A DNA stretch of 21,056 bases from a virus. The notes beneath the pieces are model-generated. The model did not search any database and was not told the DNA's origin. It saw nothing but the letters and a program-made list of their open reading frames with translations. Shown here one piece after another: positions 182-18,182 of this stretch. How positions within the stretch are numbered: the first letter of the stretch is position 1; each line of letters starts with the position of its first letter. Where the stretch lies: IMG/VR virus record IMGVR_UViG_3300033146_000317, positions 1 to 21,056 of that record; one strand, written 5' to 3'. Position numbers and translations under genes: made by a program.

Positions 182-186
182 GCTAA

Positions 187-198: not shown

Positions 199-200
199 GT

Positions 201-1559
201 CTAAAAGCCCGTGTCGAACTCGCCTGCACCAAAGGACTTGGTGCCACCGGAGGAGCCACCCATCTTATTAAGGATGGATTCACGTAGACGCTTACGTCTC
301 GTCTCCTCATCGAGTTGACCTTCCTTCTGGATTCCGGCCATGCTCTTGATTTGCTTCTTAAAGCCACGCTTCTTGCCAGTGTTGGCCATCGTCAGTGCGG
401 CGTATGTGCCACCGTACTGTGCCTGCTCAGCAAAAATCTCTTCGTAGTCTGCGTCCGGTGCTTCCTTAGACAGTTTGTTTAAGAACCTACGAGACTTCTT
501 GCCCTTACCTAAGTCCTTCTCAAAGCCAGCCTCGATTGCATCCTCGGCAATCTCTAGGTTCTTCATCCGTCTAGCGATAGCGTGCTGTGCTTTATCCGGA
601 TCGAGGGCGAAAGCAACAAGGTCACCCTTCTTTAGCCCGTAGGTATTCATCAAAGCCTTCTTCATGTCCGGGTCCCACTGGGCCTGGATGTTCTCGGCCA
701 ACTCAATACGATCCTCGAACTCAGCGGCAGAGATGTCTGCCGCAATGTACTCAGCAAAGTCCTCGAATGAATCACCGAAGCCTTTGGGCACATCAATGCG
801 AGACAGTGATTCCCTGTAAGACTTCTCTAACGTCAGGTACTCAGCCTCGGACAGTACCGGCAACCCAGCCTTGCGGCGCATCTCATTGCCTTTGAACCGT
901 TCTTTGTAGATGTCAGTGTCTCGGATGTAGGACTCAGCCTCTAATGGTGAAAGCCCTCTAGCGCCCTCAGCGATCTTCATTGCCTCCGCGAAGGTAATAC
1001 CTAGCCGATCCGACAACTGGTGCGCTAATCCCTTGAGGGCCTTCTTGCTGGTGTACTCACTGTCGGTACCGTCTTCGTCTACATCAGGTTCCGGATTAAC
1101 CTTGTCTTCCTCAAGGCGTTCCTCTTCTTTTTTCTTGCGGTATTCCTCTATCGTGATTGGCTCCTTGTAAGGAGCGAAGGGGTCACCCCTCTTCCTACCG
1201 TCCTTGCGGTAGCCATCTTCCCAGTCTTGTATCCGAGCACCGTAACGTGAGTCATCACCTGCACGTTGGTATTGGTAGTCAGGCTCGCTGTTCTTGCCGC
1301 CTCTCCTATTCCTACCCTTCTTGCCACTCACCTGTCGGCGGTCACCGTCGTACCACACTTTGGAACCGGCGTAGGTTCCCTGATCTTTATCAAGGTCCCA
1401 GTGGAAGTTGTACCGATCTTGCAGATCGGCTATGAGAACCCTGATGATTCCGTCGTCAGGGTTGCTGCCGTTCTTGATACGTCGGATGTGAGCAACGATT
1501 TCCCAGACCTTTGCGTCGCTCTTAGCGTTCTTCTCCCCCTTAGTACCGCCTGCTCTCAT
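201..1559 (-). CDS. putative virion protein, 452 aa
   Basis: The start is well supported: AGGAGG lies close upstream of the ATG and overlaps the stop codon of the preceding gene, with an 8-bp gap between the genes. The protein is highly charged and contains no cysteine. The N-terminal third (to about residue 175) is rich in Lys, Arg, Glu and Gly and looks disordered, with a KKKEEERLEED stretch near 145. Residues about 180-400 look helical, with a block containing LPVLSEAEYLTLEKSYRESL and then a GDLVAFALDPDKAQ segment. The tail is Gly/Ser-rich (GGSSGGTKSFGAGEFDTGF). I recall similar unnamed proteins near giant genes in environmental phages but cannot attach a family name. Its position after two probable internal virion proteins suggests a structural or ejected role; this is inference. 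Confidence 0.85.
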   Translation of the reverse strand: MRAGGTKGEKNAKSDAKVWEIVAHIRRIKNGSNPDDGIIRVLIADLQDRYNFHWDLDKDQGTYAGSKVWYDGDRRQVSGKKGRNRRGGKNSEPDYQYQRAGDDSRYGARIQDWEDGYRKDGRKRGDPFAPYKEPITIEEYRKKKEEERLEEDKVNPEPDVDEDGTDSEYTSKKALKGLAHQLSDRLGITFAEAMKIAEGARGLSPLEAESYIRDTDIYKERFKGNEMRRKAGLPVLSEAEYLTLEKSYRESLSRIDVPKGFGDSFEDFAEYIAADISAAEFEDRIELAENIQAQWDPDMKKALMNTYGLKKGDLVAFALDPDKAQHAIARRMKNLEIAEDAIEAGFEKDLGKGKKSRRFLNKLSKEAPDADYEEIFAEQAQYGGTYAALTMANTGKKRGFKKQIKSMAGIQKEGQLDEETRRKRLRESILNKMGGSSGGTKSFGAGEFDTGF

Positions 1560-1567
1560 TGCTCCTC

Positions 1568-3109
1568 CTAGTACCCGAACTTGCTTAACATCTGATTAGC
1601 GAATGCGTCGTACTCCTGCATGGCATTGTCGGTATCTAGCCAACGGTCATCATTCTTCTTGATGTAGTCCTTGAACTTCCATAGCGGCATAGACTCCGGC
1701 TTGCCGTCTTTGTCACGACCATCCATTCCAGCCGCCAGGGTGGGATCAGTCCAGTCAATCTGGGCGGGGTTGATCTCTAACAATCCAGCCATCTCATTCA
1801 CATACGGCTCAGATACTTGCCGCATGTTCATGCCACGATCCAACTGGTCTGCCCATGCTGGGTAGCGGGACTTAGCCTGCTCCTTCATCTCAGCCTCGAA
1901 CTCATCCCATGAATAGTTCCCGCGCGTAAGGGCGCGGGCGTAAGAGTTGACTACCGAGTCCTCGATGGACATACCCCAATCCAGTAGTTGCCCTCGGACT
2001 GCTGACTTCATTCCATCGAACTCAGCGTCCTTCATGTTGACTTTGCCGACACCAAGGTTTTCCTCTAGGGACAAACCATTGTTGTTGGTGTTCCAGTAGT
2101 GGATGGCCTGACTCATCGCCTGCTCATCGGCATCGGTGATGCCTTCATCCCACTCCATGATTCCGGATGCAGTGGCATCGGTATCACCGTAGAAGCCATT
2201 CTTAAACAAGGCCAATCGCCAGTTACGCATCTTCTGTGGGCTGTCTTTTTGATCCTGCCAGATACGCCATACGTCTTGGTTCTGGTAGAAGGAGTCATCC
2301 TGTCGGATGTCCAAGCCTTCACCAAGGTCTTCGTTAGTGCCAATGCCGTGCTCGGCAGGACCGGGAGTTGCACCAAGGGCTTGTGCTACCAAGGTATCCT
2401 CCTCGGCCTCACCGCCCTTGCTCTTCTTCTTCGCGTTCTTGGTCGCCTCCGTAGCGGTCATCTCCTGACGGCTACCGTCTGGTTGCGTAGCCTGAATCAG
2501 TGCTAGGTCTGGGTCACCCTCAATCTGTTCAAGTTGCTCAGCGGTAGCACCCTCGTCAACAAGCCGCTGCAATGTTTCCTTGGGTGTGTCCTGCCAGTGG
2601 TACGGAGCACCAGTCGCAGGGTCAAGCAACTGCTTGCCTGGTATTCCCTCCATTCCACCATCAGGCATGAGTAGTGGAGTACCGGGTACATAGGAACCAA
2701 TGTCATCCCGTATGTCCCTGCTGCTAGTTTCAGCGAACCATCCGGTAGGCAAAGGCATACCACGCTTGGCCATCCATTCGGCAGCACCCTTCACTGCGTC
2801 CGGAGCAGTTGGCGGAACAAAGTTCGCTCCGCTTATGCCCGCCATGAGATCGGTAGTCATACCGGGCCTTGTTGAGTAGTGCTCCCTGTGTGTTTCCCAG
2901 TTGGTGTAGTTATTTATAAACTGCTTGGCCCACTGCTTGGCAGCCTTCTCATCACCAGTACCACCGAGTTTTTCATAGAACTCTCTAGCCAGTTCTTCAA
3001 TCGTCTCTTTGTTCTGATCGCTTTTATTGAGAGTCCAACCGGAACGATTGTCGTCGTACCACTTGATCCGGTTCATCAACTCAGCAAGTAGTTCGTTGTT
3101 GTTCTCCAT
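1568..3109 (-). CDS. putative internal virion protein, 513 aa
   Basis: The giant gene ends GGAGGCATGTGATGG, so its TGA overlaps the ATG at 3109 by one base and its last codons supply a GGAGG ribosome binding site at 6-nt spacing. An in-frame GTG one codon earlier (3112) is possible but has only 3-nt spacing, so I prefer the ATG. The protein is acidic and cysteine-free. Residues about 1-90 are helical and charged. Residues about 90-190 are Pro/Gly-rich, and a Lys/Glu-rich low-complexity linker follows near 220-240. A region near 285-350 (RLALFKNGFYGDTDA, then many acidic helical residues) loosely recalls a peptidoglycan-binding fold, which I cannot confirm. The C-terminal ~110 residues look like a compact domain (SRYPAWADQLDRGMNMRQV ... 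PLWKFKDYIKKNDDRWLDTD) ending in FGY. I recall this kind of C-terminus beside giant genes in other phages. Function unknown; a virion role is inferred from context. Confidence 0.87.
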   Translation of the reverse strand: MENNNELLAELMNRIKWYDDNRSGWTLNKSDQNKETIEELAREFYEKLGGTGDEKAAKQWAKQFINNYTNWETHREHYSTRPGMTTDLMAGISGANFVPPTAPDAVKGAAEWMAKRGMPLPTGWFAETSSRDIRDDIGSYVPGTPLLMPDGGMEGIPGKQLLDPATGAPYHWQDTPKETLQRLVDEGATAEQLEQIEGDPDLALIQATQPDGSRQEMTATEATKNAKKKSKGGEAEEDTLVAQALGATPGPAEHGIGTNEDLGEGLDIRQDDSFYQNQDVWRIWQDQKDSPQKMRNWRLALFKNGFYGDTDATASGIMEWDEGITDADEQAMSQAIHYWNTNNNGLSLEENLGVGKVNMKDAEFDGMKSAVRGQLLDWGMSIEDSVVNSYARALTRGNYSWDEFEAEMKEQAKSRYPAWADQLDRGMNMRQVSEPYVNEMAGLLEINPAQIDWTDPTLAAGMDGRDKDGKPESMPLWKFKDYIKKNDDRWLDTDNAMQEYDAFANQMLSKFGY

Positions 3110-6100
3110 CACATGCCTCCACTACCTAGTTGAACTGTCGGACCAGTCGGTCCCTCAAGTGGGCTTTCAACAAAGCCATTGAAGTCAGGTATTACTGCTG
3201 GCCTTGTTGGCTCATTCTCAATCGTCCGAGACAGTGTGGTGACTTCATCTTCGTCTGGTGTCTTCAACTCACCCATGAAGATACGGTCAGCCATTACGTA
3301 GAAGTCTGGATGTTCCTTGATGAGTAACTGCAACTCTTTCCTTAACTCATCACGTAGCCATCTGTCATCCGCACCACCAATGCTGCCGCCTTCTGCCAGT
3401 GGCAGCATGTAGTCACGTAGTTGCAGATACTTCATTGCAGCGATACCAACCTCAGTTGCTTGCAACTCAGGTGCCTGGGTTAAGGCAACTCTGATGTCCT
3501 CAATCTGAACATCAATACCGTTAGTGTTCAACTCTTGCTTCGGGTGCGTATTGGAGATGGAGCGAAGAATCTTCTTCGCTGCTTTCCACTGCGACTCATC
3601 AGCCGCAGTCCGCTCACTGTTCATAAACTGGGCATCAATCTCGGCTAACTGCGTTTCGTACAACACCTCGTTCGCTGACTGCAACCGCTCCTGTGGTGTC
3701 AACTTCCTGTCGCCCAGGTTCTCGTTGGAGAACCGCTCCATCCGTGGATCGTACCCACCACCGGGATAGAACAACGATGCAACCGTAGGTGCGGCTTTAC
3801 GTAGATTGGGGTTCTTGAGCATTTCATCAAGCGCGTCCTTTGTGGGAGTGACGCGGTAAGACTGCTTGGCGCTCAATGCCACCATTGCCTGTAGGCCATA
3901 CTTGTCAGCCATCTGCATCAAGGCACTCTCGCGACTGCCTAGTTCGTTGTACGCCTCTTGGTATTCCCGGTACATTACTGCTTGCGAGATGTCGCCCTCC
4001 GTGGTGGCGACCCTAAAGTCAGGAACAACCTGACCGGGGTGCAGTGTCATAAAGAAGCCCTTAGCGATGGACATACCTTGTGCGAACTTTTGAGCGTCTT
4101 GGGTCAGTTGGACAAGGCCCGCGCTGGTTACCATTCCCGACTCGTCGGTGTACTGATCAGGATTCTTTGTGAGGAACATATTGACGGCAGCCGGAATGTA
4201 CTTCTCGTAACTGTCCCCGAATCCCATATTGCCGCCAGTTATAGTTCCGGCAACACCGGCACCAAGATTCTGAACCCACGCAGGAAGAATGTAGGAACCA
4301 AGGTTGTCGTCCCTATCCCCCGAAGTGTCCTGAATAGGAACCAAAGATTTCTGCAATCCATCAGGGAGTCGGTTAAACAATGCGGTGTCTTGGACCCAAC
4401 TCATGGGCATCTGGACAGCGGGACCAGCACCAGGGATCAGACCGTGACCAGTGACAAGGTTGAAGGACTGGATGGGTGAACCAATCTGTGGACCAGATAG
4501 GTCCACCCCACCACCCTGAATACCAGAGAACAATGAAGCCATCGTTCCCATTGCGGAACCAAGTAGTGGGATACCCACCATGTCGCCACGCATCGGGTCT
4601 TCCCAGAAGACTGCGTTCTCTGGGTTGTTGGGGTTGTCATCCCACCACGGCCATGCCATTGCGGAACCCTCGCCACCTGCCGCACTGTAAAGAAGTGAGG
4701 CGGTGTAGACCTTACGGGGGTTACGGACAACTGCCTTGCCCCACCACTCAAGTGAGTTAGCAAACGCCTGGATGAAGGGGAATGCAATACGCATAGCGTA
4801 GGCAGTCTGGTTCCTCTTCTGTGCGTTATAGAAGCCCTTCTCGGCTAGGTCACGACCGCCTCGCATACCCAAGCCTTCGATCTCAGACTTGGACAAGTTG
4901 CCATCGGAACGCTCAGCCAACTTAGCGTTGCGCTTGATGCCGTCCAGTGTCCTGCGTGACCACGAACCCTTGCCCTTACCTTCGAGCAACTTACCGCCCA
5001 GAGATTCTTCTGCTGCCTTTACAATCTTCTCGGCAGTCTCCGGATCAACAAACTTGACGTAGCGTTCAATCTCTTCCCAATATCCATACCGGAAAGCGGG
5101 ACCATAGGTGGTCCCCTTCTCAATGAAGTTGGAGAAGTCGAAGAACCCGGTGATGGTTCTATCCCACCAAGACGCAATGGAAGAATCAAAACCTTCCGGC
5201 TTAGGTTCGGTGATGTTAATCAGCGGCATCTCGTAGTCTTCGTACCGTTGCAACCAGTCATCGGTGCCTGGTCGCCAGGTCTTGGAGCGTGGGTCGTTAG
5301 CGGCCTTCGCCTTAGCGCGTGCTTCGACTACCTTCCAGAATGCTTCTTCCGGAATATCATCTATGTCAGCCTGTCGCATGTATGCAGTGATGGTGTCCAT
5401 CATGTCCCGGTCCCACCCGAACGTCATCTCCTGCCAGCGGACAGCGAGTGAGGCAGCGTAGTTTACTTTCCGGTCGTTTTGGGTCTTGGTCTTGCCCATC
5501 CCACCCTTGGCATCCTCGATGGGCTTGTCCCACAGATACTTATGCAGTGCGTCCTTGCCGAGGGCTTCGCGCTCTGCTGCGTCTTGGGTGTCCCTGAACA
5601 TCGAGGAGTTGGGGTCAATGTTCTTTTGGAAGTAGTTGTTTTCATCGAAGTATTGCTGCAACAAGTCCCGGTCGATGGCCTCGTCATCTATGTACCGGCT
5701 ACCACCCTTACGTGATTCCCATAGGTAATCAGTGATCGCATGTTGCAACTGCCTAAGCGTGACACCATCGCCAGCATTGGCGATCTTCTGCTCGATGTTT
5801 GCTCGTTCTGCCTTCAACTGCTCGATAGTCTTGTCGCCCTTCTTCTTGGGCTTTATCTCAAGTTGATGGATTTCCTCGACAAGGGCTTTGACTTCCTTTT
5901 GTAACTGCTTAACCTCAGGGCTATTCGGTGCATAGATTCCGGAATCAACACGCCGTTGGTGGGCTTCAACCTGCTCCTTGAGTACGCGAACCTGACGTTG
6001 CATGTCTTCGATGGTGGTAGTCAACTTGTCGCGCTGGGTAGCCATCTCTTGAAGTTTGGCCTTGAAGGAGCCGGTACCAATACCGTCGTCTGCCACACGC

Positions 6101-9100
6101 TGTGCGGCAATACGGTGGACTTCCTTCATCCAACCAATGTCATTCTCCACCGCATGTTGCAGGAAGAACTTGCCAGCATCCCCGCCCCTCTTGTCGAAGG
6201 CCATCGTCCAGAAGACCATCGCACCAAGGCTGTCGTTATACAGAAGTTGCTGCTGTCTGCCCCATCCCTTCCAGAAGTTAATAACATCCTCGGTCGCAGA
6301 CATCGGGGAGACACTGACCAGTTCGGTACTGGTCTGTATCTTCAACTGATCCTTCTCCATGATGATGTCGAGACGGGAGCGGTCATTCATAATGACCTTC
6401 AAGTAGTCCTTCCACATCGCTTCGTTCTCAGCCTCATCCAAGAACGAAGACTCTCCCCACTTCTCCCCATTCAGATCAGTCCGGGCAGGTTCCCACCTGC
6501 TTAACTTGTCTGCCCACTTCTTCCGCATTGTCCCGTCCTGGGCCAATGTCAGCATCATGGCTGTCACACCTAGTGGGTTGGTGACAATGTTGGGACGGCC
6601 CTCCATCAGAAGGCGGGCCTGCATCTCACCGAGGTTACGCAGAATGTAACTCAACCGGAATGCCAACTGGGTCGAACGGAAGAACTGGTCAAAGACGGGA
6701 CCAGTCAGGTTCTTCATAGCCTCTCGGCTAGTTGCCCCTATCCCTTCCTTCTTCACCAGATAGTCGGCCTTCTTCAAAGCCTTACGTAGTTCACGCCAGT
6801 CAGGCATCACCATGAAGTCGCTCATCTCTGCCTCAAGCGGAGCGACCATCTTCAATGCTTCCTGCGTCTCATCGGTAGCAGACGGCAAAGTCTTGGCACC
6901 CTTGGCAGTGGAAGCCACTGCTGTAGCAGAGAGGAACCTGGCGTTCTCTTCGCCAGCACCCTGCCACAACTTGAACTGCTCAATCAGTTCCTCGCGCAAC
7001 TCCTTAGAGACATTCTGCGTCTCAGCCGCACGGTCCACCATGTCATCTATGTAGCGGTTCCATACGTTGCGACGGGCCATTGCCGGACTAGATGGGTACC
7101 GGATGTCAGCCATGATCATCTCGTTCACCCAGTAGTCGTGAATCATCTTGTTATTCATCACCACTTCGACGCGAGCGTCTTTGTCTGTGGTGATGTTTCC
7201 ATCTTTATCTAAGTAGTTACCGTCCCGGTCTTTCTTCCAGGCATCCATAGCCTCACGAATCTTGGCATCGTTGCGGCTAGTGGTGACACCGAACATCCCG
7301 CCACCGTTCTTACGGGAGACGAATGGCATACCGCCGTCCTTTAGGGACCGGCTTGTGTCCTTCCAAGTAGTCGGATTAAACCTAAGAACATAACCAATAC
7401 CATCAGAGACAGCCATAGCAGATTGGTTCGCATCTTTGGAATCTATTCCAATGTGCGCCCACGGTGTGATAGCCGCACGACGGTTGGCGAAGAACATGCT
7501 CGACTTCGCAGCCAACGCCCAGTAGGCGTTGAACTTGGAGTGGGGGTTGGCCCCATTCATACGAGCACGGGCAGTGGCGGCAGTGTTAGCAATCTTGCCT
7601 CGCTCATACGACACGCCAGTGTCAGCATCACGAACCATCCGGCCCAGGATGTCCCACAGTTCAGTCTCAGTGGTGGCTTCCGAAATCTCAGCCGCCCACC
7701 TTGCGGGCAATCTCCGCGCCGACAGTTCCCACAACTCGGCAGCATTATCCAACTTCAAGAAGTAGTTGACGATGAAGTCGGCATCGACATCCATGTCACG
7801 ACCACGTAGACCGAAGAACCGCTTGGTGTTGAATAGTTTGTTTAAGGCTCCGGCCAGGTCGTTCTTCCTCCGACCCGGATGTTCCCAGTTGTCATTCCAC
7901 CATCTACGCAAGGATTCGGTGTACTGCTCCTCTAGGGTCATCGGAGTCACTGGTGGCTCCCCGCCCTTACGGGCGTACTCGAACCGCTCCATCTCGGTAG
8001 CGTTCTCGAACCACTCGGTGAACTCATCAAGAACCTTCTCGGAGTTACCTGATGGCTCAAGGGAACGCTTGCTTACGTTTTCAATAACCTCATCAATGGG
8101 AGTCCTTGGGGTTGACTCAATCAAAGACTCGGCAGCCTTGGATGCCCTGACCGCTTCCTCTAGTGCCTCAGCGGTAGCGTGCTGACCGGCACGCAGGTTG
8201 GCCACTCCATCCAGTAGGGCTTCCTCGCTACCCATCGGTGGCTTGGGCTGTCCCGGTCCCTGTCTCCTGGCTCGGTCGTCGGCAGCCTTACGGGCTGCGT
8301 CCATCGCCTCGCCAATCTCATCGAAGGACTTACCGTGGATGAACTTCTGGAACGCACCACCCACGAGGAAAGCCTTGGCTTTCTCAATCGCGTAGTCGCG
8401 TTCCCATACCGTGACTGGCCTGCCGTCTTTGCGGACCTGCTTGCCGTCCTTCAACTTCGGTCGGCTACCGGGAGCACGGGGTTCAACTGGGTTGGTTTGA
8501 AGCGTGCTGTCGAACTTGTATTCCTTTACCTGCTCCTTGCCATCGGGACCAATCCACTTGGCAATAACCACACCCCTCTCATCATCAACCGTGATGCGGG
8601 CTTCCATGCCACCGTCATCAAACAACGTGTGAAGGCGCAACGTCTGTGCGCCATAGGTGGGATCGACCTTCCACTGGAACTTCTTCTTACCACCAACGAA
8701 AGCCTCTGAGGCTTTGTTGATGACCTGATCCCATTCCCCGCCCTTGGCTCCATCTACTTGAGCAAGTAGTCGGCCAGTGTTGTCATCGAAGATGCGGTAC
8801 GAGTAGGTGGGGTCCCCCGCGTATTCGTACACCTTACGAACTACTGGCTGACCGTTCTCAATGACAATGACTTCGTTGTACTCCGTTGGCTTCCTGGCTT
8901 CCACCTTCTGCGCCCGGATGCCGTAACCGATCATCCGGTCGTCGGTGACCTTCTGTCCCGGCCTAGCCACACTGTCATCGAACCGAGTGACATCATCGAG
9001 GATGACACTCTCATGCACGGCTGGCAGTGGAGTGTCACCGGAAGCAATCTGAACTGGCGGGGAGTCCTTGGTGAATCCACGAGTCAGGCTTGTGTCCAGT

Positions 9101-12100
9101 GAGCCGTCAGCCTTGAACACCAACTCGACGTAGATGTCACCATCCGTGGGGTAGGTGCGAACCTCGACCCGTCGTCCTGCGCTACCCACCTGGCCCGGAC
9201 TAGATGGGATGTAGACATCGTTCAGGTAGGACACCAGACCTGGCATCTCTGGACCTTGACGGTTCACTGCGTCTTGAGCGGTACGGGAAACGGAGTCATC
9301 CATCACTGGGTCCATGCTGGTGCCGAACCGTTCCGGATCACCCTCAGCATTCAGGACCAACTCATCGGGTGCCATCGGCTCACCGCGATAGGCACCACGC
9401 TCTGCTGCACTAGCACCAGACAGGTAACCAAGATCAATGCCCGTGGGATTGATGTCACCATTCTCATCAAGCAGGGGATACGGTTGAAGTTCCTTCCACC
9501 CCTTCGACCCACTACTCTCTAGCCAGTCAATGTGCTCCTTGAGTCTGGCCCACTCTTCCGGTGTCATGTACCCACCGCGAGGGATGCCGCCAATAATCTC
9601 CGACACCTCGACCCATGACGCATCCTTTAGTGCGTCTTCATCCAGCCCGCGCTGATCTGTCCTAGTGCTGAATGGGGAACGCTCATCCCTCGGTGTGCCA
9701 CCCGGATCAATGCGTTGCAAGTCACTCGTCGCGTACTTGGGCCTACCGTAGATAGGTTCGAGACGACCGTCAGCGTTACGAACATGGGGAACACGACCAC
9801 CCATCTCGCCAGCCATTGGAGTCGTGGTCAGTAGCGGAATCGGTGATGACCGTGCCGGGTCTACGTCAACTGCCTGCACCTCAAGTTCGTCACCCCATCG
9901 AGTACCACTGGCCTTAGCGCCTTGCATACGAGCAAGCCGCGTCGCGTCCTGGGTGCTAACTGACTGTCCCCAATACACCCACTGGTTGTCACTGGTTCCG
10001 GCAGTGGACACTCCCTCGCGTGCGGCCTCTGCCGCTTTGCCTTTGTCGCTGGGGAACAACGCCCTCGACAGGGCAATCCCCAACTCACCCTCATCCAACT
10101 TCCAAGGCTGGTAAACCAGGCCACCCGGATCAACCTCACGAGCCATGTCTAGGTACTTGGCCTTGAATGCGGTGTCAAGGATCGCAAGGAAGTTGCCGAT
10201 CAAATCCCGGTTGTCTTCACTGATGCCACGCAAGACGAGGTTGGCGTTATCTTCCAACGCACCACGAGCGGCGGGGTTGGGAGTGTTGCCAATGAAGTTG
10301 ACCAACTCATCGAATAGTTCAACCGCCTCATCACCAGTTGTAATCTCCCGACCACTGGTGGGATGTACGGCGAAGGGTTCATTCATGTCATCGGCTGCAC
10401 GACGGATGTTCTCGCGTGCCGCCTCGAAGAAGGAAGGTAGGCGACCCATCACCGCGTCGATCATGTTGTTCGGGTTCTCCGTCATAAACGCGATAGGCGC
10501 AAGGCGTGAGTCAAAGTAGTTGAAGTATTCATACTGATCGGCAGTGCCATTCAGGAAGTCTTCGATCTCCTTCTGCATCTGCCGCCAGTTGTCAGCGTTG
10601 TGAGGCTTCGGAGTGTGGGACAACAACTGGGTCAGGATTGACCTAGCGCGGTCATTAAGAGGGGACTCTCCCCGTCCCGAAGAACCAGTCCGGCGTGAGA
10701 TGTCATCACTGATCGGGTAATACTCATCGCCACCGTAGGCTAGCCCGTACTCTAGTTGGCCACCTCTGTCACCAACAATCTGTGTTACCTCATCCCCTAC
10801 CCATCCGCTTGAACCCTCTGAACCTAGTTGCCGAGCCTCTGCGGTTTCATCGCCACCAGCAACGCTGGCCTTCACTACGTCGTCGGTGCCAGCCATTGCG
10901 GCCTCGTCGGCCTGCTGGACTAACTTCTCTTCCGCCTTCGGGTTGATACCGAAGTCGATGTCCTGCTGACGAGGAAGAGTAAGGTCATCAACGATACGCA
11001 CCTTGCGGGCAAGTTCAGACTTCAAGTCTTGGTATGAGATACCCGAAGCGTCATCTGCACCAGCATCAAACTTGGGTGCTATGCCCAACTCTTCTGCCAG
11101 CATCCTGCTCAGGTTTGCCCTAGCGGCTTGGGCCTCATACGACCCCTGCCCCATTCTCCTCGGGGGAGCATTGATACCAAACGCGATCTGGAAAAACTTA
11201 GCGAATGCTTCGTTCTGCTTCTCTGCCGGTTTCGATGGGTCGAATGTCGGTACGCCCTCCACGCCGAATGCGTCTACGTAGTCCCTTACTGGGAGGTCGC
11301 CACCATCAAGCATGTCACGGGGGTACATGACATCAAGTTCTTCCGCCATCTCTTTCAGGAGATTGCTGTCGGCGTACTGACCGATGTATCGCTCGGAACC
11401 CTTGTTGATCCAGCCATACGGGGAGAGTCCGAAGACTGGGTACCACTGACCGGGGACGACTCCATCTTTAGGAACCGAACCTGATGAGTTGTAGAAAAGG
11501 AACTTCTCTCCGTCCTTCTCCACTATTGCGAAGTAGCGACCGTCATAGGAGATGACGGGTGCGCCACTACCAAGGAAGTCTTCAACGTGCTCGAAGGTTT
11601 GCTTCTGTCTTCTGGGGCCTATCTTCCTGGCGTTCTCCAACTCCTCAACAATCATGTTGAGGTTACGCAGGTAGATAGCGTCTAGGGTGGGGACACTCAC
11701 CTTGCCATTGGTGGGAATCTTTGTGGCTTCTTCCCCGTACAAAGTTTTCTGTACTGCCTGTGGGAACTGGGCGAAGGTGGAACCTGCGCCCTGGAACTGC
11801 TGCTCAAAGTCATCCATCCTCTGGATGATCGAAGCCATCTGCTCAAAGTCTTGAGGGTCTACATCGCGACCAGCACCTATGTAGATGGCTTCATCACCGT
11901 AGTACGAAGAACCAAATGGTGAAGCCTGGTTGTCCCGCTCGGCGCGAGCCACCTGAGCCATCTCTTCTTCATCGGTCACTCGACCGGCTGCTGCCATCTC
12001 CTGATCGAACTCTACATCTTGCCGGTACTCAGCCTCGTCTAGTTGGCGAGAAATAGTTGAACCATCGTAGTCAGGATGACCAGGCAGGCGGGGAGTCTTG

Positions 12101-15100
12101 GCCCGATAGATCGCATCGCTCATGGCCTTGTGCCAATCCACGACACCCTTATAGGCACCCGTGCTTTTACTGAACTCCGCCCAATGCAGGAATATCAATC
12201 CGGAACGAAGGGCATCCTCTAGGCCATACCGCTGTACGGCAGTGGGATCAGACCGAACCCAAATCTCAAACGCCTCGACTGCTAGTCGTTGGGCTTCGTC
12301 CTTCGCCGCCTTCGGGGACATCTCTTTGTCTATGGCTTTGCCCGCATCATCAACGTCTCGGGGCAACTTGCCGTTGCCCACCTTCTTCGCGTCTTCGACG
12401 CTCTTGTATCCAAGTAGTCTTGCCCAGACCTGCTCAATCGAGAGTTGTTCACCGTTGAGTTTTACTCCCCATTCCTCCCCTTGCAACAAGGCGGAAACTC
12501 CAAGAAAGCCATCCTCTTGCAGTGGAGTACCCTGCTGGTATATCCGGTTGCCGCGACCCAGACCTTCTGCGCTGTAGACCATCTTGCTTGTCCACGGGGT
12601 ACCAGTGCCGATGCGGTTGTTCTTCAACCACTCATCAAGTTCCTTTGCAGACTTGAACTCTTTGGTGCGGTAGATGTGACGCTTCCTCGTACCCGCTATG
12701 AACGCAGTGTCATCCGCCCACTCGGCAGGCATCTTGCCGCCTATGCCTAGTGCAGACATAGCCTCGGCTGCGGTCATCTCACCCAGGTACTCCACCAGCA
12801 TTGAGCGACGCTCCCGCTTGGAGACGGCCTTTACTTCTGCCTGCTCCTTCTGGGCTGGACGGTAACCCTTCGTGCCCTTCTTGCCTTTGGCTGCCCTCTT
12901 CTTCTTTGCGGCTTGGCCCTTCTTGGCCGCGCGGTCCTTGACCACGACAGTGAACTCTTCGCCAATATCGACACCGGAGATCGCACTGTCCATGACGTAG
13001 GCACCCTCGCCATAGCCAAGGTCAATAACGTCATCGCCCGGAGCGACCGGCATATCAACACTAAGATCAGCGGGTTCATCGGCCTTGCCACTCTTGAGTG
13101 GTGCCGGGATCGGTACCCGCTTCCTGGGCTTCTTGCCCTGGAAGGGGTCTTCCTCTGTGAAATCCTTACGTCGCCTGATGGGGCGTATCTCACCCACTGG
13201 GTCAACCCTGATGGATACCGAGGCATCTCGGTACATCACCTGACCATTCTCATCAAGTATTGGCAGACCCGTTTGAGGGTCTAGGTCCACAACCTTGACC
13301 GGAGTCTCAGGTCCCTCTCTGGGTTGGGTGAAAGTTTTCTTGAGTGGGTCATCATCTGCCCTAGCGGCGTTGGCCACTTCCTCTGCTTCCATCCGCTTCA
13401 TTAAGTCGCGGACACTTCCCTCCCAGTTCTCAGCGAACTGGTAGAGAGTTGACATGGGCAGTGGCTTGGCGTTGATCTTCTGACCGTTGAAAGCAACTAG
13501 GTCGTAGAGGTCGGCATCGTCTTTAGACTTGGTGATCTTCCACTTGAACTGGGTCTTCTTGGTGACAGTCTCCCCGCCTTTGCCACCTTTGACCTTGATC
13601 AGTTCCGGCTCCCAGTTATCACTCCACCGGAATACCGTCTCCCCACTCAACTCAAGAAGTTCACCCATCATCTTCTCGTACCAAAGTTTGTGCTCCCGCA
13701 CCTTCGCCTTGGCCTGCTGCTTACCGGCTAACGCCCACCCATCCGCTTTCGCCTGGTCAACCATTCCGGGGACCAACGTGTCCTCGAAGTCCTTCAACAC
13801 TCTGGCCGCACCAGCCATGAAGGTTTCAACATTCAGACGCATACCAGCCATGACCTTGCGTAGATCATCGACCTGCTCGTTGGCTGCCTTGGCCTTGCGG
13901 TACACATCCATGAACTCGTTGTACTCGCGAAGCAAAGTTTCCCCTGCCTCTTCGCGAACCAACACTGCTACCGGAGAAGGATCGACTGGCTTACCAGCCA
14001 GTGCCTCATCCGCGTAGTCGTCGGCATACCGCTCGTATTGAGCGGCCAGCCGCCACATGCTGTCCATCTCTTCGGCTAGATCGGGAGAGACATTGCGAAC
14101 AAAGTCCAACTTGATCGCCCAGTCTGCTCGACCTAATCCGGCTGCTTCCAGTCCCTCATCAACTTGGGTGTGACCCAGGTCTACACCCCTTGCTGCGTTC
14201 TCGACTCCTTCGACTGTCGCATCCGAAACAACACCAGGGTTGAATACGGTGGTATCCCGAAGTAGTTCGTCGTAGTCCGGTGCCCACTTCGCCTTAATGC
14301 CCGTCTTGATCAGGGCTTCGCTACCGGCTTGGTACAGACCTTTGGCACCAGCCTTGATAGCGCCGGGACCTATGTAGAGTGTCGGGTCAACCAGATAGAA
14401 CAAGGCATCGAGGGCACCACCATAAGAGGTGTGGATGTTGTCACCGGGGGTTGACCACGACAACATCTGACCAACTGATGCGACACCCATTCCGTCGCCA
14501 GCCTTGAGTGCCGGATCATCGGGGCTAAACTTCCACCGCTTGATGTCCTGCTGGCGCTTCGCCTTGGCGGCGGGACTCTCGTAGTCAACGAACCAACCAT
14601 CGCCCCAATCCGACAGGTACTCTTTACCGTCCGTGTCGGCAGTGAATACACCTTTGACCATTCGGGTAAAGGTGGTGTTGGTAAAGATTGACTTGAATCG
14701 TCCGGGGAACTCTTCTGCGTGTACGTTCTCCGAGTTGACTATCGCACCCCATGTCTCAGCGACAGTGTTGGAAGCGACTTCGGGTATGTACTCTAACGCG
14801 GCGATTGCACCTTGGACTATGTTCTGCGCCCAGTTCACTATGGCTGGGTCTTCGTCCTGGGCTTCCGCTTCTTCCGCAACGCGCCGCTTGTGCGCTTTAT
14901 CGTTGTACTCCTCTAGGGCAGCAACCTTGTCTTGAAGTTTGGTGGGCATCCCGGCTTGCTCAGCCAGGTTGCCTACTGCTCGGGTAGTGGAACCACCACC
15001 ACCGAGGAACACTGATGGTGCAATCAACATTGTTGCCGCACCGTCCGGTCCAATACCGGGTGCCAGTTCCGCTGCGGTCTGCAAACTGTCAGCGTCAACT

Positions 15101-15582
15101 ATGGCTTTGATGTCTGGGTTACCACTTAGCCGCGCTTTGAACTTGATCGTTTCATTCCACTGGTCTTCGGTTAGACCACGGGAGCGGTAGTATTCCGCTC
15201 GGGTTATCTGCGGCTGGGTACGGGACTCGGCAGCAATGACGTTCTGCGCTTCGTGGTAGCGATCCTCTTTGCGGTGAGTCTGAAAGCCTGTAGTGGAATC
15301 ACTAGCAGGTACGCCTAACCCCTTGCGGATTAGTTTCTCACCAAGGTCTTTACCACCGGGACGTTCTACATAGCGAAGGTCCCGACCATAAGGGTCGGTA
15401 TCTCGGTCAGGGTCGGTACCAAGACTGACGTTGGGTTTGTTGACGAAACGATCCGTCACCCGTTGGGCGCGCTCGTAACCTTGCTCGCCATACTCCGGAG
15501 TGTCCACACCGATGAGGCGAACATCGCCATCATCAGTCTTGATTGTGTCGCCATCAATGGCACCCCAACCGTCAGTGCTCAT
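3109..15582 (-). CDS. giant virion protein with N-terminal staphylococcal-nuclease-like domain, 4157 aa
   Basis: This single uninterrupted frame encodes a protein of roughly 460 kDa. The ATG at 15582 overlaps the previous gene's stop (ATGA) and has GAGGG just upstream. Residues 1 to about 120 match the thermonuclease (SNase) family: IDGDTIK, VRLIGVDTPE and DPYGRDLRYV align with D21, R35, D40, E43 and R87 of staphylococcal nuclease as D12, R22, D27, E30 and R67, so the full catalytic set is present. The rest is mostly unassigned. There is a Lys/Ala-rich basic stretch near 880-910, a segment containing WYPVFGLSPYGWINKGSERY near 1375, a helical block with LSYILRNLGEMQARLLMEG near 2977-2995, a clear heptad-like coiled coil at about 3175-3269, and a Trp- and Pro-rich region with hydrophobic stretches near 3615-3690. 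I found no cysteine anywhere. Giant proteins encoded near portals are often carried in the virion and ejected with the DNA. I looked for single-subunit RNA polymerase motifs as in N4 virion RNA polymerase and did not find them. The nuclease is solid; ejection and target (host DNA or competing DNA) are inference. Confidence 0.93.
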   Translation of the reverse strand: MSTDGWGAIDGDTIKTDDGDVRLIGVDTPEYGEQGYERAQRVTDRFVNKPNVSLGTDPDRDTDPYGRDLRYVERPGGKDLGEKLIRKGLGVPASDSTTGFQTHRKEDRYHEAQNVIAAESRTQPQITRAEYYRSRGLTEDQWNETIKFKARLSGNPDIKAIVDADSLQTAAELAPGIGPDGAATMLIAPSVFLGGGGSTTRAVGNLAEQAGMPTKLQDKVAALEEYNDKAHKRRVAEEAEAQDEDPAIVNWAQNIVQGAIAALEYIPEVASNTVAETWGAIVNSENVHAEEFPGRFKSIFTNTTFTRMVKGVFTADTDGKEYLSDWGDGWFVDYESPAAKAKRQQDIKRWKFSPDDPALKAGDGMGVASVGQMLSWSTPGDNIHTSYGGALDALFYLVDPTLYIGPGAIKAGAKGLYQAGSEALIKTGIKAKWAPDYDELLRDTTVFNPGVVSDATVEGVENAARGVDLGHTQVDEGLEAAGLGRADWAIKLDFVRNVSPDLAEEMDSMWRLAAQYERYADDYADEALAGKPVDPSPVAVLVREEAGETLLREYNEFMDVYRKAKAANEQVDDLRKVMAGMRLNVETFMAGAARVLKDFEDTLVPGMVDQAKADGWALAGKQQAKAKVREHKLWYEKMMGELLELSGETVFRWSDNWEPELIKVKGGKGGETVTKKTQFKWKITKSKDDADLYDLVAFNGQKINAKPLPMSTLYQFAENWEGSVRDLMKRMEAEEVANAARADDDPLKKTFTQPREGPETPVKVVDLDPQTGLPILDENGQVMYRDASVSIRVDPVGEIRPIRRRKDFTEEDPFQGKKPRKRVPIPAPLKSGKADEPADLSVDMPVAPGDDVIDLGYGEGAYVMDSAISGVDIGEEFTVVVKDRAAKKGQAAKKKRAAKGKKGTKGYRPAQKEQAEVKAVSKRERRSMLVEYLGEMTAAEAMSALGIGGKMPAEWADDTAFIAGTRKRHIYRTKEFKSAKELDEWLKNNRIGTGTPWTSKMVYSAEGLGRGNRIYQQGTPLQEDGFLGVSALLQGEEWGVKLNGEQLSIEQVWARLLGYKSVEDAKKVGNGKLPRDVDDAGKAIDKEMSPKAAKDEAQRLAVEAFEIWVRSDPTAVQRYGLEDALRSGLIFLHWAEFSKSTGAYKGVVDWHKAMSDAIYRAKTPRLPGHPDYDGSTISRQLDEAEYRQDVEFDQEMAAAGRVTDEEEMAQVARAERDNQASPFGSSYYGDEAIYIGAGRDVDPQDFEQMASIIQRMDDFEQQFQGAGSTFAQFPQAVQKTLYGEEATKIPTNGKVSVPTLDAIYLRNLNMIVEELENARKIGPRRQKQTFEHVEDFLGSGAPVISYDGRYFAIVEKDGEKFLFYNSSGSVPKDGVVPGQWYPVFGLSPYGWINKGSERYIGQYADSNLLKEMAEELDVMYPRDMLDGGDLPVRDYVDAFGVEGVPTFDPSKPAEKQNEAFAKFFQIAFGINAPPRRMGQGSYEAQAARANLSRMLAEELGIAPKFDAGADDASGISYQDLKSELARKVRIVDDLTLPRQQDIDFGINPKAEEKLVQQADEAAMAGTDDVVKASVAGGDETAEARQLGSEGSSGWVGDEVTQIVGDRGGQLEYGLAYGGDEYYPISDDISRRTGSSGRGESPLNDRARSILTQLLSHTPKPHNADNWRQMQKEIEDFLNGTADQYEYFNYFDSRLAPIAFMTENPNNMIDAVMGRLPSFFEAARENIRRAADDMNEPFAVHPTSGREITTGDEAVELFDELVNFIGNTPNPAARGALEDNANLVLRGISEDNRDLIGNFLAILDTAFKAKYLDMAREVDPGGLVYQPWKLDEGELGIALSRALFPSDKGKAAEAAREGVSTAGTSDNQWVYWGQSVSTQDATRLARMQGAKASGTRWGDELEVQAVDVDPARSSPIPLLTTTPMAGEMGGRVPHVRNADGRLEPIYGRPKYATSDLQRIDPGGTPRDERSPFSTRTDQRGLDEDALKDASWVEVSEIIGGIPRGGYMTPEEWARLKEHIDWLESSGSKGWKELQPYPLLDENGDINPTGIDLGYLSGASAAERGAYRGEPMAPDELVLNAEGDPERFGTSMDPVMDDSVSRTAQDAVNRQGPEMPGLVSYLNDVYIPSSPGQVGSAGRRVEVRTYPTDGDIYVELVFKADGSLDTSLTRGFTKDSPPVQIASGDTPLPAVHESVILDDVTRFDDSVARPGQKVTDDRMIGYGIRAQKVEARKPTEYNEVIVIENGQPVVRKVYEYAGDPTYSYRIFDDNTGRLLAQVDGAKGGEWDQVINKASEAFVGGKKKFQWKVDPTYGAQTLRLHTLFDDGGMEARITVDDERGVVIAKWIGPDGKEQVKEYKFDSTLQTNPVEPRAPGSRPKLKDGKQVRKDGRPVTVWERDYAIEKAKAFLVGGAFQKFIHGKSFDEIGEAMDAARKAADDRARRQGPGQPKPPMGSEEALLDGVANLRAGQHATAEALEEAVRASKAAESLIESTPRTPIDEVIENVSKRSLEPSGNSEKVLDEFTEWFENATEMERFEYARKGGEPPVTPMTLEEQYTESLRRWWNDNWEHPGRRKNDLAGALNKLFNTKRFFGLRGRDMDVDADFIVNYFLKLDNAAELWELSARRLPARWAAEISEATTETELWDILGRMVRDADTGVSYERGKIANTAATARARMNGANPHSKFNAYWALAAKSSMFFANRRAAITPWAHIGIDSKDANQSAMAVSDGIGYVLRFNPTTWKDTSRSLKDGGMPFVSRKNGGGMFGVTTSRNDAKIREAMDAWKKDRDGNYLDKDGNITTDKDARVEVVMNNKMIHDYWVNEMIMADIRYPSSPAMARRNVWNRYIDDMVDRAAETQNVSKELREELIEQFKLWQGAGEENARFLSATAVASTAKGAKTLPSATDETQEALKMVAPLEAEMSDFMVMPDWRELRKALKKADYLVKKEGIGATSREAMKNLTGPVFDQFFRSTQLAFRLSYILRNLGEMQARLLMEGRPNIVTNPLGVTAMMLTLAQDGTMRKKWADKLSRWEPARTDLNGEKWGESSFLDEAENEAMWKDYLKVIMNDRSRLDIIMEKDQLKIQTSTELVSVSPMSATEDVINFWKGWGRQQQLLYNDSLGAMVFWTMAFDKRGGDAGKFFLQHAVENDIGWMKEVHRIAAQRVADDGIGTGSFKAKLQEMATQRDKLTTTIEDMQRQVRVLKEQVEAHQRRVDSGIYAPNSPEVKQLQKEVKALVEEIHQLEIKPKKKGDKTIEQLKAERANIEQKIANAGDGVTLRQLQHAITDYLWESRKGGSRYIDDEAIDRDLLQQYFDENNYFQKNIDPNSSMFRDTQDAAEREALGKDALHKYLWDKPIEDAKGGMGKTKTQNDRKVNYAASLAVRWQEMTFGWDRDMMDTITAYMRQADIDDIPEEAFWKVVEARAKAKAANDPRSKTWRPGTDDWLQRYEDYEMPLINITEPKPEGFDSSIASWWDRTITGFFDFSNFIEKGTTYGPAFRYGYWEEIERYVKFVDPETAEKIVKAAEESLGGKLLEGKGKGSWSRRTLDGIKRNAKLAERSDGNLSKSEIEGLGMRGGRDLAEKGFYNAQKRNQTAYAMRIAFPFIQAFANSLEWWGKAVVRNPRKVYTASLLYSAAGGEGSAMAWPWWDDNPNNPENAVFWEDPMRGDMVGIPLLGSAMGTMASLFSGIQGGGVDLSGPQIGSPIQSFNLVTGHGLIPGAGPAVQMPMSWVQDTALFNRLPDGLQKSLVPIQDTSGDRDDNLGSYILPAWVQNLGAGVAGTITGGNMGFGDSYEKYIPAAVNMFLTKNPDQYTDESGMVTSAGLVQLTQDAQKFAQGMSIAKGFFMTLHPGQVVPDFRVATTEGDISQAVMYREYQEAYNELGSRESALMQMADKYGLQAMVALSAKQSYRVTPTKDALDEMLKNPNLRKAAPTVASLFYPGGGYDPRMERFSNENLGDRKLTPQERLQSANEVLYETQLAEIDAQFMNSERTAADESQWKAAKKILRSISNTHPKQELNTNGIDVQIEDIRVALTQAPELQATEVGIAAMKYLQLRDYMLPLAEGGSIGGADDRWLRDELRKELQLLIKEHPDFYVMADRIFMGELKTPDEDEVTTLSRTIENEPTRPAVIPDFNGFVESPLEGPTGPTVQLGSGGM

Positions 15583-15986
15583 CGACCCTCTGCTTCCAAT
15601 CTATTAACCATCGCTCGTAGTTCCGGTGATGGGTTTGCCTGATAAGCAAGCCGAACAAGTGCGGCCACCTCGTCATCTTTATCTTGAGGTGGTCGTGCTA
15701 TCTCATTCGGACCCGGACCTATCGGGACTCCGGAAGTGACTGGCTCAGTAGGTCGATCACTAGGGGCACCTAGAGGCGTAGCCCGTGGCGCGGCGGGTGC
15801 CGCTGCCAACGGGGCCTCACCTGCAAGTTCATTCACTTCCTTGTTCTCCCCATAAGGGAGTCCGGTCACATCTTGCGGTGGTTGAGTATTGTTCGGCATA
15901 CCAAATCCATCCGTCCGACGCGACAGTTTCCCCGGCCCCGATACGGGGGCCGGGTCACTGGGCCGTCGGTATCCACCTGACGGCAT
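15579..15986 (-). CDS. Pro/Ala-rich small virion-associated protein, 135 aa
   Basis: The ATG at 15986 lies 2 bp after the stop of the preceding small gene, and the TGA overlaps the giant gene's ATG by 4 bp, so the three are likely coupled. The protein has a basic Pro/Gly-rich start (MPSGGYRRPSDPAPVSGPGK), a middle dominated by Ala and Pro (AAAPAAPRATPLGAPSD), and a short C-terminal segment (DDEVAALVRLAYQANPSPEL ... RLEAEGR) that is probably helical. It contains no cysteine and no recognisable catalytic domain. I recall similar short proteins with a GGYR-P-PAPVSGPG start next to portal genes in uncultured phages, but they have no assigned function. A role as a portal-associated or internal head protein is inference from position. 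Confidence 0.8.
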   Translation of the reverse strand: MPSGGYRRPSDPAPVSGPGKLSRRTDGFGMPNNTQPPQDVTGLPYGENKEVNELAGEAPLAAAPAAPRATPLGAPSDRPTEPVTSGVPIGPGPNEIARPPQDKDDEVAALVRLAYQANPSPELRAMVNRLEAEGR

Positions 15987-15988
15987 GA

Positions 15989-16132
15989 CTACTTCTTAGG
16001 TTTGCCGTAGTGCTTGTCAGCCGACTCGCGCATGTCATCACCAATGAAGCCTTTGGTGTACTGGTCTACTCCGTAGTACAACTCTTCTTTGGTGAATGAC
16101 GTAGGCGTAGGCTGATCGCTCGCCTTCTTCAT
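15989..16132 (-). CDS. small hypothetical protein, 47 aa
   Basis: This gene is too short for most ORF cut-offs. It starts at the ATG at 16132, which shares one base with the stop codon of the preceding 49-codon gene (TGATG), and ends in TAG at 15989-15991, two bases before the 135-residue gene. Tight packing on both sides, with no other frame filling the gap, is the main support. The product begins MKKASDQPTPTSFTKEELYY, is hydrophilic with a basic end (HYGKPKK), and has no cysteine or membrane segment. I recognise no family. It may be a minor head protein. Confidence 0.65.
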   Translation of the reverse strand: MKKASDQPTPTSFTKEELYYGVDQYTKGFIGDDMRESADKHYGKPKK

Positions 16133-16281
16133 CAGTGACCGCCCTGGTGTGGGTTGCGCTTCACATTGTTCTTCGCAACTCCCCCGGAGGTCATTGCCTT
16201 CGGGCCTTTCTTCACGTTGGTGCCAACGCCGATGTCACGCATCGCGTCGCCTGCACTGGCTTTATCGCCACCTGCTGCCAT
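16132..16281 (-). CDS. small basic hypothetical protein, 49 aa
   Basis: The ATG at 16281 is preceded by a strong ribosome binding site (GGAAGGAG, about 7 nt upstream). The frame is open for 49 codons to a TGA that overlaps the next gene's ATG. The product starts MAAGGDKASAGDAMRDIGVG, continues with a Lys-rich segment (VKKGPKAMTSGGVAKNNVK), and ends NPHQGGH. It is small, basic and Gly-rich with no cysteine, which would suit DNA or portal association, but no family is recognised. It is the first gene after the portal, separated from it by 32 bp that contain a perfect hairpin. Confidence 0.7.
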   Translation of the reverse strand: MAAGGDKASAGDAMRDIGVGTNVKKGPKAMTSGGVAKNNVKRNPHQGGH

Positions 16282-16295
16282 TGTTCTTCTCCTTC

Positions 16296-16313: not shown

Positions 16314-18182
16314 CTATATCGGCATTTGCCGTTGCACGCCTGCACTCAAGTTGGGATCGCCACTAGCGCCGAGTCCGGCGAGCATGTTGAGATCGGCTTG
16401 CATGTCGCCGGATGGTTGCATTGGTGGACCACCGGGGGGACCCCCTGGTGATGGGGGGGGATTGCCAGGTAGCCCCGCGCCCGGTGGACCTAGCCCCGGC
16501 TCTGCTGGAAGACCCGGAGCGGCTTGTTGTAGTTCCGGTTCCGGCTCTGGCTCCGGTGGAGCCAACGCCTCGGAAACTATCTTCTCTAATGGTATCCCCT
16601 TAGTCCGACCATTCACGACATCTGTGATTAGTTGGAGTGCCTGATTCGGATCGCCGCCTTGGGCGGTCATCTCGGGGATGGAAGATGCGTACTGTTGGAC
16701 CGCTACCTTCAATGCTTCGCGCGTGTCTTCAACGTCGATCTTTCTTTCTTCTGCCTCAACGTCCAGATCAGCAGGCATCTGGCGACGAAGGTAGTCGCGC
16801 GAGATGAGTTTTTCTGCTCGGGCTTGCAGTCCAAACACAAGCCAGCGCGAGGGATCAAGACCGGCCATGAGTCCGTATTGCACATCAACGTCGTACACAC
16901 CATTGATTGCTTTCTCCGGCGTGTACTCAAGATCGAACGGAGTCCCATTCGTTGTCCCCTTGATTCGCTTCTTCTTCTTGCCCCACATCTTCTCGTCGCA
17001 CTCAAGTGCGAGGCTTGCGGTCTTGGTGAGTAGTGGAGCCAACACTGCTTGCGCGGTACGAACCTGGGTATCGAACCCTTCCATCAGGGCTTGAACGCCC
17101 TTGCCGGTAACGTGTCCCCCCGCTGCGCTGGGGTCCCCGCCACGAAGTTCGGGGTAGCGTGATCCTTCCCGCTGTTCGCGGGCAAGGGTGGCATCTTCTT
17201 GCCACATCGAGGGGGGAACATCCAACTGTAGTCGCCGGACGTTTTGCGGCTCCGAAGTACGTAGGTGAGCATCCGGACCCAACGGCACGTTGGTGACATC
17301 CGGCGGCACAATGATGGGTGCCTGGATTGACTTATGTGCCGCTTCCAATCCGAGTAGTGCCATTCGACTGCGTGCCAACTGCACGAACATTACGTCGTCG
17401 AACTGGCCCCTAACCACTGGGCCGGGTCGCATCGCCACATTAACGAGGCACTTTCCGACAGGATTGGGCACTCGGGACAACAACATTGCCTGGGAGGATG
17501 AGATCGCTCCGGCGGGCAAGAACACTGTGTCGGCTTTTTCGTCATGGTGGAACACCACCTCAATGAGTTGGTTATCAGCGGGACTGTCGCCGTAGTCGTA
17601 CTTCTTTTGCAGTGGCCCCTCTAGTTCCGGATACAGTTCGGCCAGCATCTCGACTGTGCAGTAGGTCCGTTGGTACAACGCAGTACATCGCCGCCATCTG
17701 TCGATCACCGGGTAGCAACCCATTGGGTCAAGCATCCGGATGATCGGCAGCATGTTGTCGTAGTCGTATTCAATCTTGGAGAATGCCCAGCCAAAGGTGA
17801 CGAAGTTGTCGGCGGCTGTGTACATCTGGGTCTGCATGTCAGACCCATGAAGTATGGCGGAGAGAATCTTGGTGCGTTTCTCTGCCGCTTTCTCCTGAGC
17901 GGGGGACAACCCGGCGGATGATCCGGCGTTGAATGCGGGTAGTGGGGCAATCATTTCCGCTAGATCGCGGGCCGCAACGTCGATCATGTTGGCGACGATT
18001 GGCTCCTGCCAAGGACCATCGCCGGGGAATAGGTCTGGGGCTAGATCGGAGATGCGACCAGACCTAATCAGGAGAAGTTGCTGGTGCTTGAGGTCGCGGT
18101 TGGCATAACGGGACAGCATTCGGCTGAACCCGTATGAGAGTTTCATCAGACCACTGGGGTCATTTGGCCCGCTAATGTTCAC
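16314..18182 (-). CDS. phage portal protein, 622 aa
   Basis: The portal forms the dodecameric ring at the head vertex through which DNA is packaged and ejected. Support is the position directly after the terminase, the length, and the sequence style: a helical start (SYGFSRMLSRYANRDLKHQQ), a segment DGPWQEPIVANMIDVAARDL typical of portal clip/wing regions, then FGWAFSKIEYDYDNMLPIIRMLDP, and a long helical C-terminal half with ISRDYLRRQMPADLDVEAEE. From about residue 540 the protein becomes a Pro/Gly-rich tail that is probably disordered. The frame is open up to 18347, but that extension is the reverse-frame overlap with terminase and looks non-coding. I chose the GTG at 18182, which overlaps the terminase stop by 4 bp (GTGA). 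The ribosome binding site is weak, and the ATG at residue 13 is an alternative. It contains five cysteines, unlike the downstream genes. Confidence 0.85.
   Translation of the reverse strand: MNISGPNDPSGLMKLSYGFSRMLSRYANRDLKHQQLLLIRSGRISDLAPDLFPGDGPWQEPIVANMIDVAARDLAEMIAPLPAFNAGSSAGLSPAQEKAAEKRTKILSAILHGSDMQTQMYTAADNFVTFGWAFSKIEYDYDNMLPIIRMLDPMGCYPVIDRWRRCTALYQRTYCTVEMLAELYPELEGPLQKKYDYGDSPADNQLIEVVFHHDEKADTVFLPAGAISSSQAMLLSRVPNPVGKCLVNVAMRPGPVVRGQFDDVMFVQLARSRMALLGLEAAHKSIQAPIIVPPDVTNVPLGPDAHLRTSEPQNVRRLQLDVPPSMWQEDATLAREQREGSRYPELRGGDPSAAGGHVTGKGVQALMEGFDTQVRTAQAVLAPLLTKTASLALECDEKMWGKKKKRIKGTTNGTPFDLEYTPEKAINGVYDVDVQYGLMAGLDPSRWLVFGLQARAEKLISRDYLRRQMPADLDVEAEERKIDVEDTREALKVAVQQYASSIPEMTAQGGDPNQALQLITDVVNGRTKGIPLEKIVSEALAPPEPEPEPELQQAAPGLPAEPGLGPPGAGLPGNPPPSPGGPPGGPPMQPSGDMQADLNMLAGLGASGDPNLSAGVQRQMPI

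Follow-up and report, generated by a model that had tools for sequence, protein, structure and literature searches.

The virion RNA polymerase (vRNAP) of phage N4 has been reported to lack cysteine, an absence linked to passage of the enzyme through the tail or periplasm (PMC2784036, PMC3715699, PMC3915230, PMC4837373, PMC5795418). A vRNAP was likewise proposed in StenR_269 from the absence of cysteine, and the same feature was noted in Zobellviridae (PMC10747016). As far as found, the known precedent is limited to N4-like vRNAPs and similar giants; in the literature searched, which covered few subscription journals, nothing was found that generalizes the absence of cysteine to ejection modules or to tape-measure proteins. 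Here we analyze a linear virus fragment, the complete 21,056-bp IMG/VR record IMGVR_UViG_3300033146_000317 (hereafter the window), in which six consecutive open reading frames (ORFs) on the minus strand (201..16281), among them one for a giant protein of 4157 aa, follow the portal gene and encode no cysteine. An earlier note had called attention to this block, had pointed to the cysteine-free N4 enzyme, which the published work bears out, and had suggested that the block marks proteins passing unfolded through the portal and tail channel into the host.

The terminase large subunit (TerL) of the window is ~41% identical, over >90% coverage, to TerL of Streptomyces podoviruses of the Beephvirinae, one member of which, Abafar, was shown to be a podovirus by transmission electron microscopy (PMC11536984). 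The sequence places the window as an uncultured relative of these phages. In FlowerPower, Immanuel3, and WRightOn (Manuelvirus), the gene order is TerL, portal, small genes, giant, gp10, gp11, gp12, and gp13. By blastp, phmmer, and synteny, the window order of TerL, portal, gp7, giant, gp11/12-type, and gp13-type genes matches this Beephvirinae-type virion module, and the cysteine-free pattern is shared. Unlike these phages, the window encodes a giant of 4157 rather than ~1640 aa that is fused to a staphylococcal nuclease (SNase)-like domain, contains one gp11/12-type protein with no gp10 found, lacks an endolysin gene between TerL and portal, and carries an HNH gene before TerL.

Absence of cysteine from the post-portal block

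All main genes of the window lie on the minus strand. Translation of the six post-portal ORFs yields 0 cysteines in 5,353–5,354 residues, confirming what had been read from the sequence earlier. The ORFs encode products of 49 aa (16132..16281) and 47 aa (15989..16132), both too short to be informative, followed by a 135-aa protein (15579..15986), the 4157-aa giant with 85 tryptophans (3109..15582), a protein of 514 aa from a GTG or 513 aa from the next ATG (1568..3112), and a 452-aa protein (201..1559). The genes on the other side of the boundary serve as controls. TerL (18179..20062; phrog_38, 1.8e-63) has three cysteines at exactly the residues listed earlier (390, 495, and 579), and the HNH endonuclease (20052..20453), assigned by sequence searches, has five. 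The portal ORF (16314..18347; phrog_104 portal, 3.2e-18) contains nine at its longest extent, where it overlaps TerL by 169 bases, so the five previously counted (211, 221, 230, 300, and 450) hold from the likely start; the true start is probably ~60 codons in, with the first ~60 codons and their four cysteines not translated. The claim of a block boundary directly after the portal stands for the portal-side edge, while the other edge is the end of the contig and is therefore unseen.

Chance or mutational bias in this 55% GC genome accounts for such an absence with negligible probability, even though the two shortest ORFs would be free of cysteine anyway. Position-specific base composition predicts ~60 TGY codons for the 4157-aa gene alone, in agreement with the earlier expectation of tens of cysteines at ordinary frequencies. 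The sense frame of the block contains 0 TGY in 5,360 codons, whereas the two remaining sense frames hold 146 and 208 and the antisense frames 135–279. Mutation supply is not limiting, since 1,184 of 5,354 block codons are one substitution from TGY, and tryptophan is not scarce but if anything enriched (2.0%). Cysteine is also present in TerL, the portal, and the HNH protein. The probability of finding none over the block is ~7e-17 at the rate of the TerL family and only 0.005 at that of the family capsid protein. Taken alone, the zero count is strong evidence but not decisive, and relatives were therefore needed; their sequences, described below, refute the chance explanation.

Conservation in relatives and the catalytic exception

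Because back-translated patterns for the giant and the 513-aa protein retrieved no homologues from viral contigs, relatives were reached through TerL, and 80 related loci were gathered. Homologues freely carrying cysteine would have spoken against the reading of the earlier note, but every post-portal giant ORF found, at lengths of 1,600–2,365 aa, has none (FlowerPower with its annotated start). Dereplicated into 26 clusters at 50% identity, the giants contain 0 cysteines in 45,808 residues despite being highly diverged, with a mean column identity of 17% in a 22-member alignment. On the same contigs, some cysteine is always present in TerL (94 in 13,359 residues, 0.70%) and in the portal (71 in 12,670, 0.56%), and other families range from 0.71% (gp45) and 0.43% (gp43) to 0.11% (gp44) and 0.10% (capsid protein). 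The proteins encoded beside the giant follow its pattern: gp10 has 0 cysteines in 2,382 residues, gp13 (the 452-aa family) 0 in 5,800 across 15 proteins, and gp11/12 (the 513-aa family) 1 in 7,364 within the metagenomic-contig set. The two cysteines of gp7 (the 135-aa family; 2,711 residues) both fall at residue 3, in ORFs that may have been called from a start too far upstream. These homologues make the case far stronger and indicate that the zero count in the block is not due to chance.

Assignment of the block to these families was based on direct matches where available. The 452-aa protein is an orthologue of gp13 (370–387 aa in Beephvirinae), with 46% identity over 113 aa to the WRightOn and FlowerPower proteins (blastp) and a match to phrog_8424 (2.4e-43). 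The 513-aa protein shares a C-terminal domain with gp11 and gp12 (28–36% identity to their homologues by blastp; phrog_6654, 2.3e-27), and the 135-aa protein is an orthologue of gp7 (phrog_8200) with matches in 47 loci. The window giant is the syntenic counterpart of the relatives' post-portal giants, which all form one single-linkage group; its conserved C-terminal part (residues 2815–4107; 3262..7140) aligns by blastp to related giants. The best match, to the giant of locus L006, has 32% identity over 789 aa (5e-92), and weaker blastp matches were found to L014, L081, L025, L064, L077, and L073. A direct match to gp9, the Beephvirinae giant, was not significant, and tblastn of pieces of the giant against named phages gave no matches except a weak one in OX376640, which covers a separate short ORF.

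The few cysteines that do occur in the gp11/12 family are informative. In FlowerPower, Immanuel3, and WRightOn, gp11 contains exactly one, C33, which lies in the DCSGLV motif of an NlpC/P60 domain (3.6e-30 in Immanuel3 and 1.7e-29 in FlowerPower), and the sole cysteine of the metagenomic set (C31 in G004) falls in the same motif. In L082 a single cysteine at residue 32 occupies the aligned position in a KCLSLVR context and is probably the catalytic residue. The gp12 protein has an SLT transglycosylase domain (2.5e-5) and no cysteine. In the 513-aa protein of the window itself, the N-terminal hydrolase of the Beephvirinae proteins was not found, and domain searches detected no hydrolase domain. 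Proteins of ~430 residues that lack cysteine save for the catalytic nucleophile are hard to explain by composition, and these sequences indicate selection against any cysteine that is not chemically required. The exception serves as a natural experiment in which selection can be told apart from composition.

These observations also bear on whether the depletion is a side effect of fold class, with long alpha-helical, low-complexity, or weakly packed proteins being poor in cysteine whatever their role. An AlphaFold model of giant residues 3345–4157, built from 20 aligned sequences, is mostly helical, albeit at low confidence (mean pLDDT 57) and with no informative matches in fold comparisons; low cysteine is also seen in helical scaffolds and in the needles of P22 and Sf6. 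However, the count in the giants is an absolute zero over 45,808 residues and not merely a low rate, tryptophan is enriched (1.7–2.0%) with normal phenylalanine, leucine, and isoleucine, implying that hydrophobic cores are present, and the enzyme-bearing members drop every cysteine but the catalytic one. We therefore regard fold class as an unlikely explanation.

Cysteine in ejected proteins of other phages

To place the block in a wider context, cysteines were counted in reference proteins that we take, from the phage literature, to be either experimentally ejected or homologous to core proteins; homology or synteny was the basis for including those of SP6, phiKMV, and P-SSP7, and N4 gp51 is a presumed member. 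In N4, gp50 (0/3500), gp51 (0/644), and gp52 (0/150) all lack cysteine. The same is true of P22 gp7 (0/229), gp20 (0/471), and gp16 (0/609), together 0/1,309, and of the three ejection proteins of SP6 (0/239, 0/978, and 0/1270; 0/2,487) and of phiKMV (0/181, 0/898, and 0/1337; 0/2,416). In T7, gp15 (0/747) and gp16 (0/1318) total 0/2,065, accompanied by gp14 (1/196), gp6.7 (1/88), and gp7.3 (0/99). Single cysteines occur across the Sf6 set (1/230, 0/431, and 0/665; 1/1,326) and P-SSP7 gp14–16 (1/200, 0/837, and 0/1245; 1/2,282), while the phi29 terminal protein has 0/266 and the phi14:2 vRNAP 2/2180. Among tape-measure proteins, P2 T has a single cysteine and those of lambda, HK97, Mu, TP901-1, and phi11 lack it entirely, giving 1 cysteine in 5,294 residues. 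The pattern is thereby extended from N4-type giants to the ejection proteins of P22, Sf6, T7, SP6, phiKMV, and P-SSP7 and to tape-measure proteins. As in the T7 gp14-gp15-gp16 and P22 gp7-gp20-gp16 modules, the window block consists of consecutive genes for large proteins with little or no cysteine, and the peptidoglycan hydrolase within the T7 ejection set, gp16 (PMC8954989), has a parallel in gp11 and gp12 of the window's relatives. Unlike in those systems, ejection is inferred here, and neither sequence nor profile comparison detects similarity between the window giant and their proteins.

A hand-picked panel of proteins gave 0.75% cysteine for other virion proteins and 1.29% for non-virion proteins, but it omitted two phi14:2 virion proteins and N4 gp57, all with no cysteine, and is hence flattering. 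We therefore prefer a scan, made with no selection, that took in all complete ORFs of 400 aa or longer from the reference regions outside the Beephvirinae (n = 118, with classes assigned by hand). Cysteine is absent from 23 of the 118, comprising 17 of the 25 proteins classed as ejected or tape-measure and 6 of the 93 others (Fisher P ~5e-10). The six others are the capsid proteins of N4 and phi29, N4 gp57, two phi14:2 virion proteins, and one uncharacterized P-SSP7 protein. The last, PSSP7_050 (L139 25360–27066; 568 aa), adjoins TerL and by the zero-cysteine rule is a candidate virion or ejected protein. The concern raised earlier, that non-ejected proteins might be equally free of cysteine, applies to several scaffolds and to certain major capsid proteins but almost never to long non-ejected proteins. 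As a predictor of ejected proteins, zero cysteine works in this comparison but is neither exclusive nor universal.

A second consideration is oxidation, in that a purge of cysteine might shield all virion proteins in long-lived particles with no link to tail passage. The low rates of the family major capsid protein (0.10%) and gp44 (0.11%), together with the lower virion average in the hand-picked panel, would fit such a scenario. In contrast, the most exposed virion proteins are rich in cysteine (8 in P22 gp9, 15 in epsilon15 gp20, 13 in the Sf6 spike, and 11 in N4 gp65), and the portal always has some; depletion follows the internal or ejected class and not exposure. We give this explanation little credence.

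Taken together, the block is quite probably the internal-virion (ejection) module of a podovirus related to Streptomyces Beephvirinae, with cysteine selected against for ejection. In this model, the giant and its two large neighbors would be packaged in the head; on infection, they would lose at least part of their fold and be threaded to the outside along the portal and tail channel. The ejected proteins would breach the cell wall with the help of wall-cutting domains in the module, and the giant would bring its N-terminal nuclease into the host. Such hydrolases are seen in the orthologues (gp11 NlpC/P60 and gp12 SLT), and the SLT domain of gp12 fits the expectation for wall-breaching ejection proteins. 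Thiols may put crowded copies at risk of disulfides and cross-links while they are threaded through the channel into an oxidizing exterior before refolding, which would leave the catalytic cysteine alone tolerated. Packaging, ejection, unfolding, and this physical reason for the purge are what we infer from the cysteine absence conserved in highly diverged homologues, its catalytic exception, the hydrolase domains of the orthologues, the SNase-like site, and the parallel depletion elsewhere.

Several observations weigh against this reading. Some proteins described as ejected keep cysteines, including epsilon15 gp15–17 (4/2,394), T4 Alt (3/682), and the phiKZ vRNAP subunits gp178 and gp180 (7/1,941), so cysteine is not incompatible with ejection. 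Conversely, procapsid scaffolds (3 cysteines in 1,791 residues) and several major capsid proteins are poor in cysteine and are not ejected into the host; at least the P22 scaffold exits the procapsid through holes in the shell. The middle ~2,400 residues of the window giant have no detectable relative or domain, and virion proteomics or structures of Beephvirinae-type phages were not found in the literature searched, leaving virion location and ejection to be read from synteny, size, hydrolase domains, and composition. The suggestion that the block marks channel-ejected proteins is partly supported by the same depletion in known ejected proteins, although the mark is not exclusive or universal.

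More broadly, we lean somewhat toward the view that cysteine exclusion has evolved repeatedly and constrains, as a general rule, the proteins that leave through the tailed-phage channel (tape-measure proteins and podovirus ejection proteins), broken mainly for catalytic nucleophiles. Comparison by hhalign of the giant C-terminal profile with ejection proteins of T7, P22, N4, and epsilon15 gave at most 0.7% probability for all, and this lack of significant similarity points to convergence. Depletion in the tape-measure proteins of Firmicutes phages (two of the six phages have Firmicutes hosts) hints that channel transit, and not the oxidizing Gram-negative periplasm, is the common factor, but only weakly, since exported proteins of Firmicutes are cysteine-poor anyway. 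Ejection proteins evolve so rapidly that they are seldom found by homology, and most giant phage proteins are unannotated. If the constraint holds, zero cysteine would predict injected proteins in unannotated phage genomes without recourse to homology; applied to long ORFs of virion modules, it would flag injected proteins and fused effector cargo from sequence and would give a testable physical claim on protein passage through the phage exit channel.

Domains of the giant protein and minor features

Residues 8–113 of the giant (15244..15561) match thermonuclease in the PDB (phmmer, 5.8e-9) and the Pfam SNase domain PF00565 above the gathering threshold. All six catalytic and metal-site positions of staphylococcal nuclease are kept in the alignment, with D12, R22, D27, T28, E30, and R67 corresponding to SNase D21, R35, D40, T41, E43, and R87, and the active site is therefore predicted to be intact. 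Unlike in staphylococcal nuclease, the domain forms the N-terminus of a 4157-aa phage protein, and it is absent from every other giant of the set. If packaged with the genome, it would need to be held inactive until delivery; possible roles are attack on host DNA or exclusion of competitors. Separately, locus L085 (OX376640) encodes an SNase-like ORF with one cysteine (2–385, minus strand) that is cut at the record end, and its own giant has no such domain. In the nearest relative, L006, a weak match to GNAT acetyltransferase (3.5e-4) lies at residues 456–508 of the giant (14458–20949), where the window giant differs; this suggests that enzymatic cargo varies among these giants.

In size, absence of cysteine, and podovirus context, the giant resembles N4 gp50 of the Schitoviridae (~3,500 aa) and the Zobellviridae and StenR_269 giants, and it could in principle be a true N4-type vRNAP that is cysteine-free by descent. 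We consider this very improbable. Searches of Pfam, PHROGs, and NCBIfam found no RNA polymerase signature or family match in the giant, the family C-terminal profile gave insignificant hhalign results against N4 gp50 and phi14:2 g066, and related giants of just 1,600–2,365 aa are equally free of cysteine. The purge here also spans a whole multi-gene module. For the 2,700 residues after the SNase domain, domain searches gave only coiled-coil noise. A candidate PF..N..RNP motif was dropped, as it is not conserved across the giants.

Downstream of gp13, the module of FlowerPower, Immanuel3, and WRightOn continues with a tRNA array, a short gene, and then the capsid protein. In the Beephvirinae loci L002, L003, and L084, at least 20 tRNA genes lie between gp13 and the short pre-capsid gene, within the structural module.

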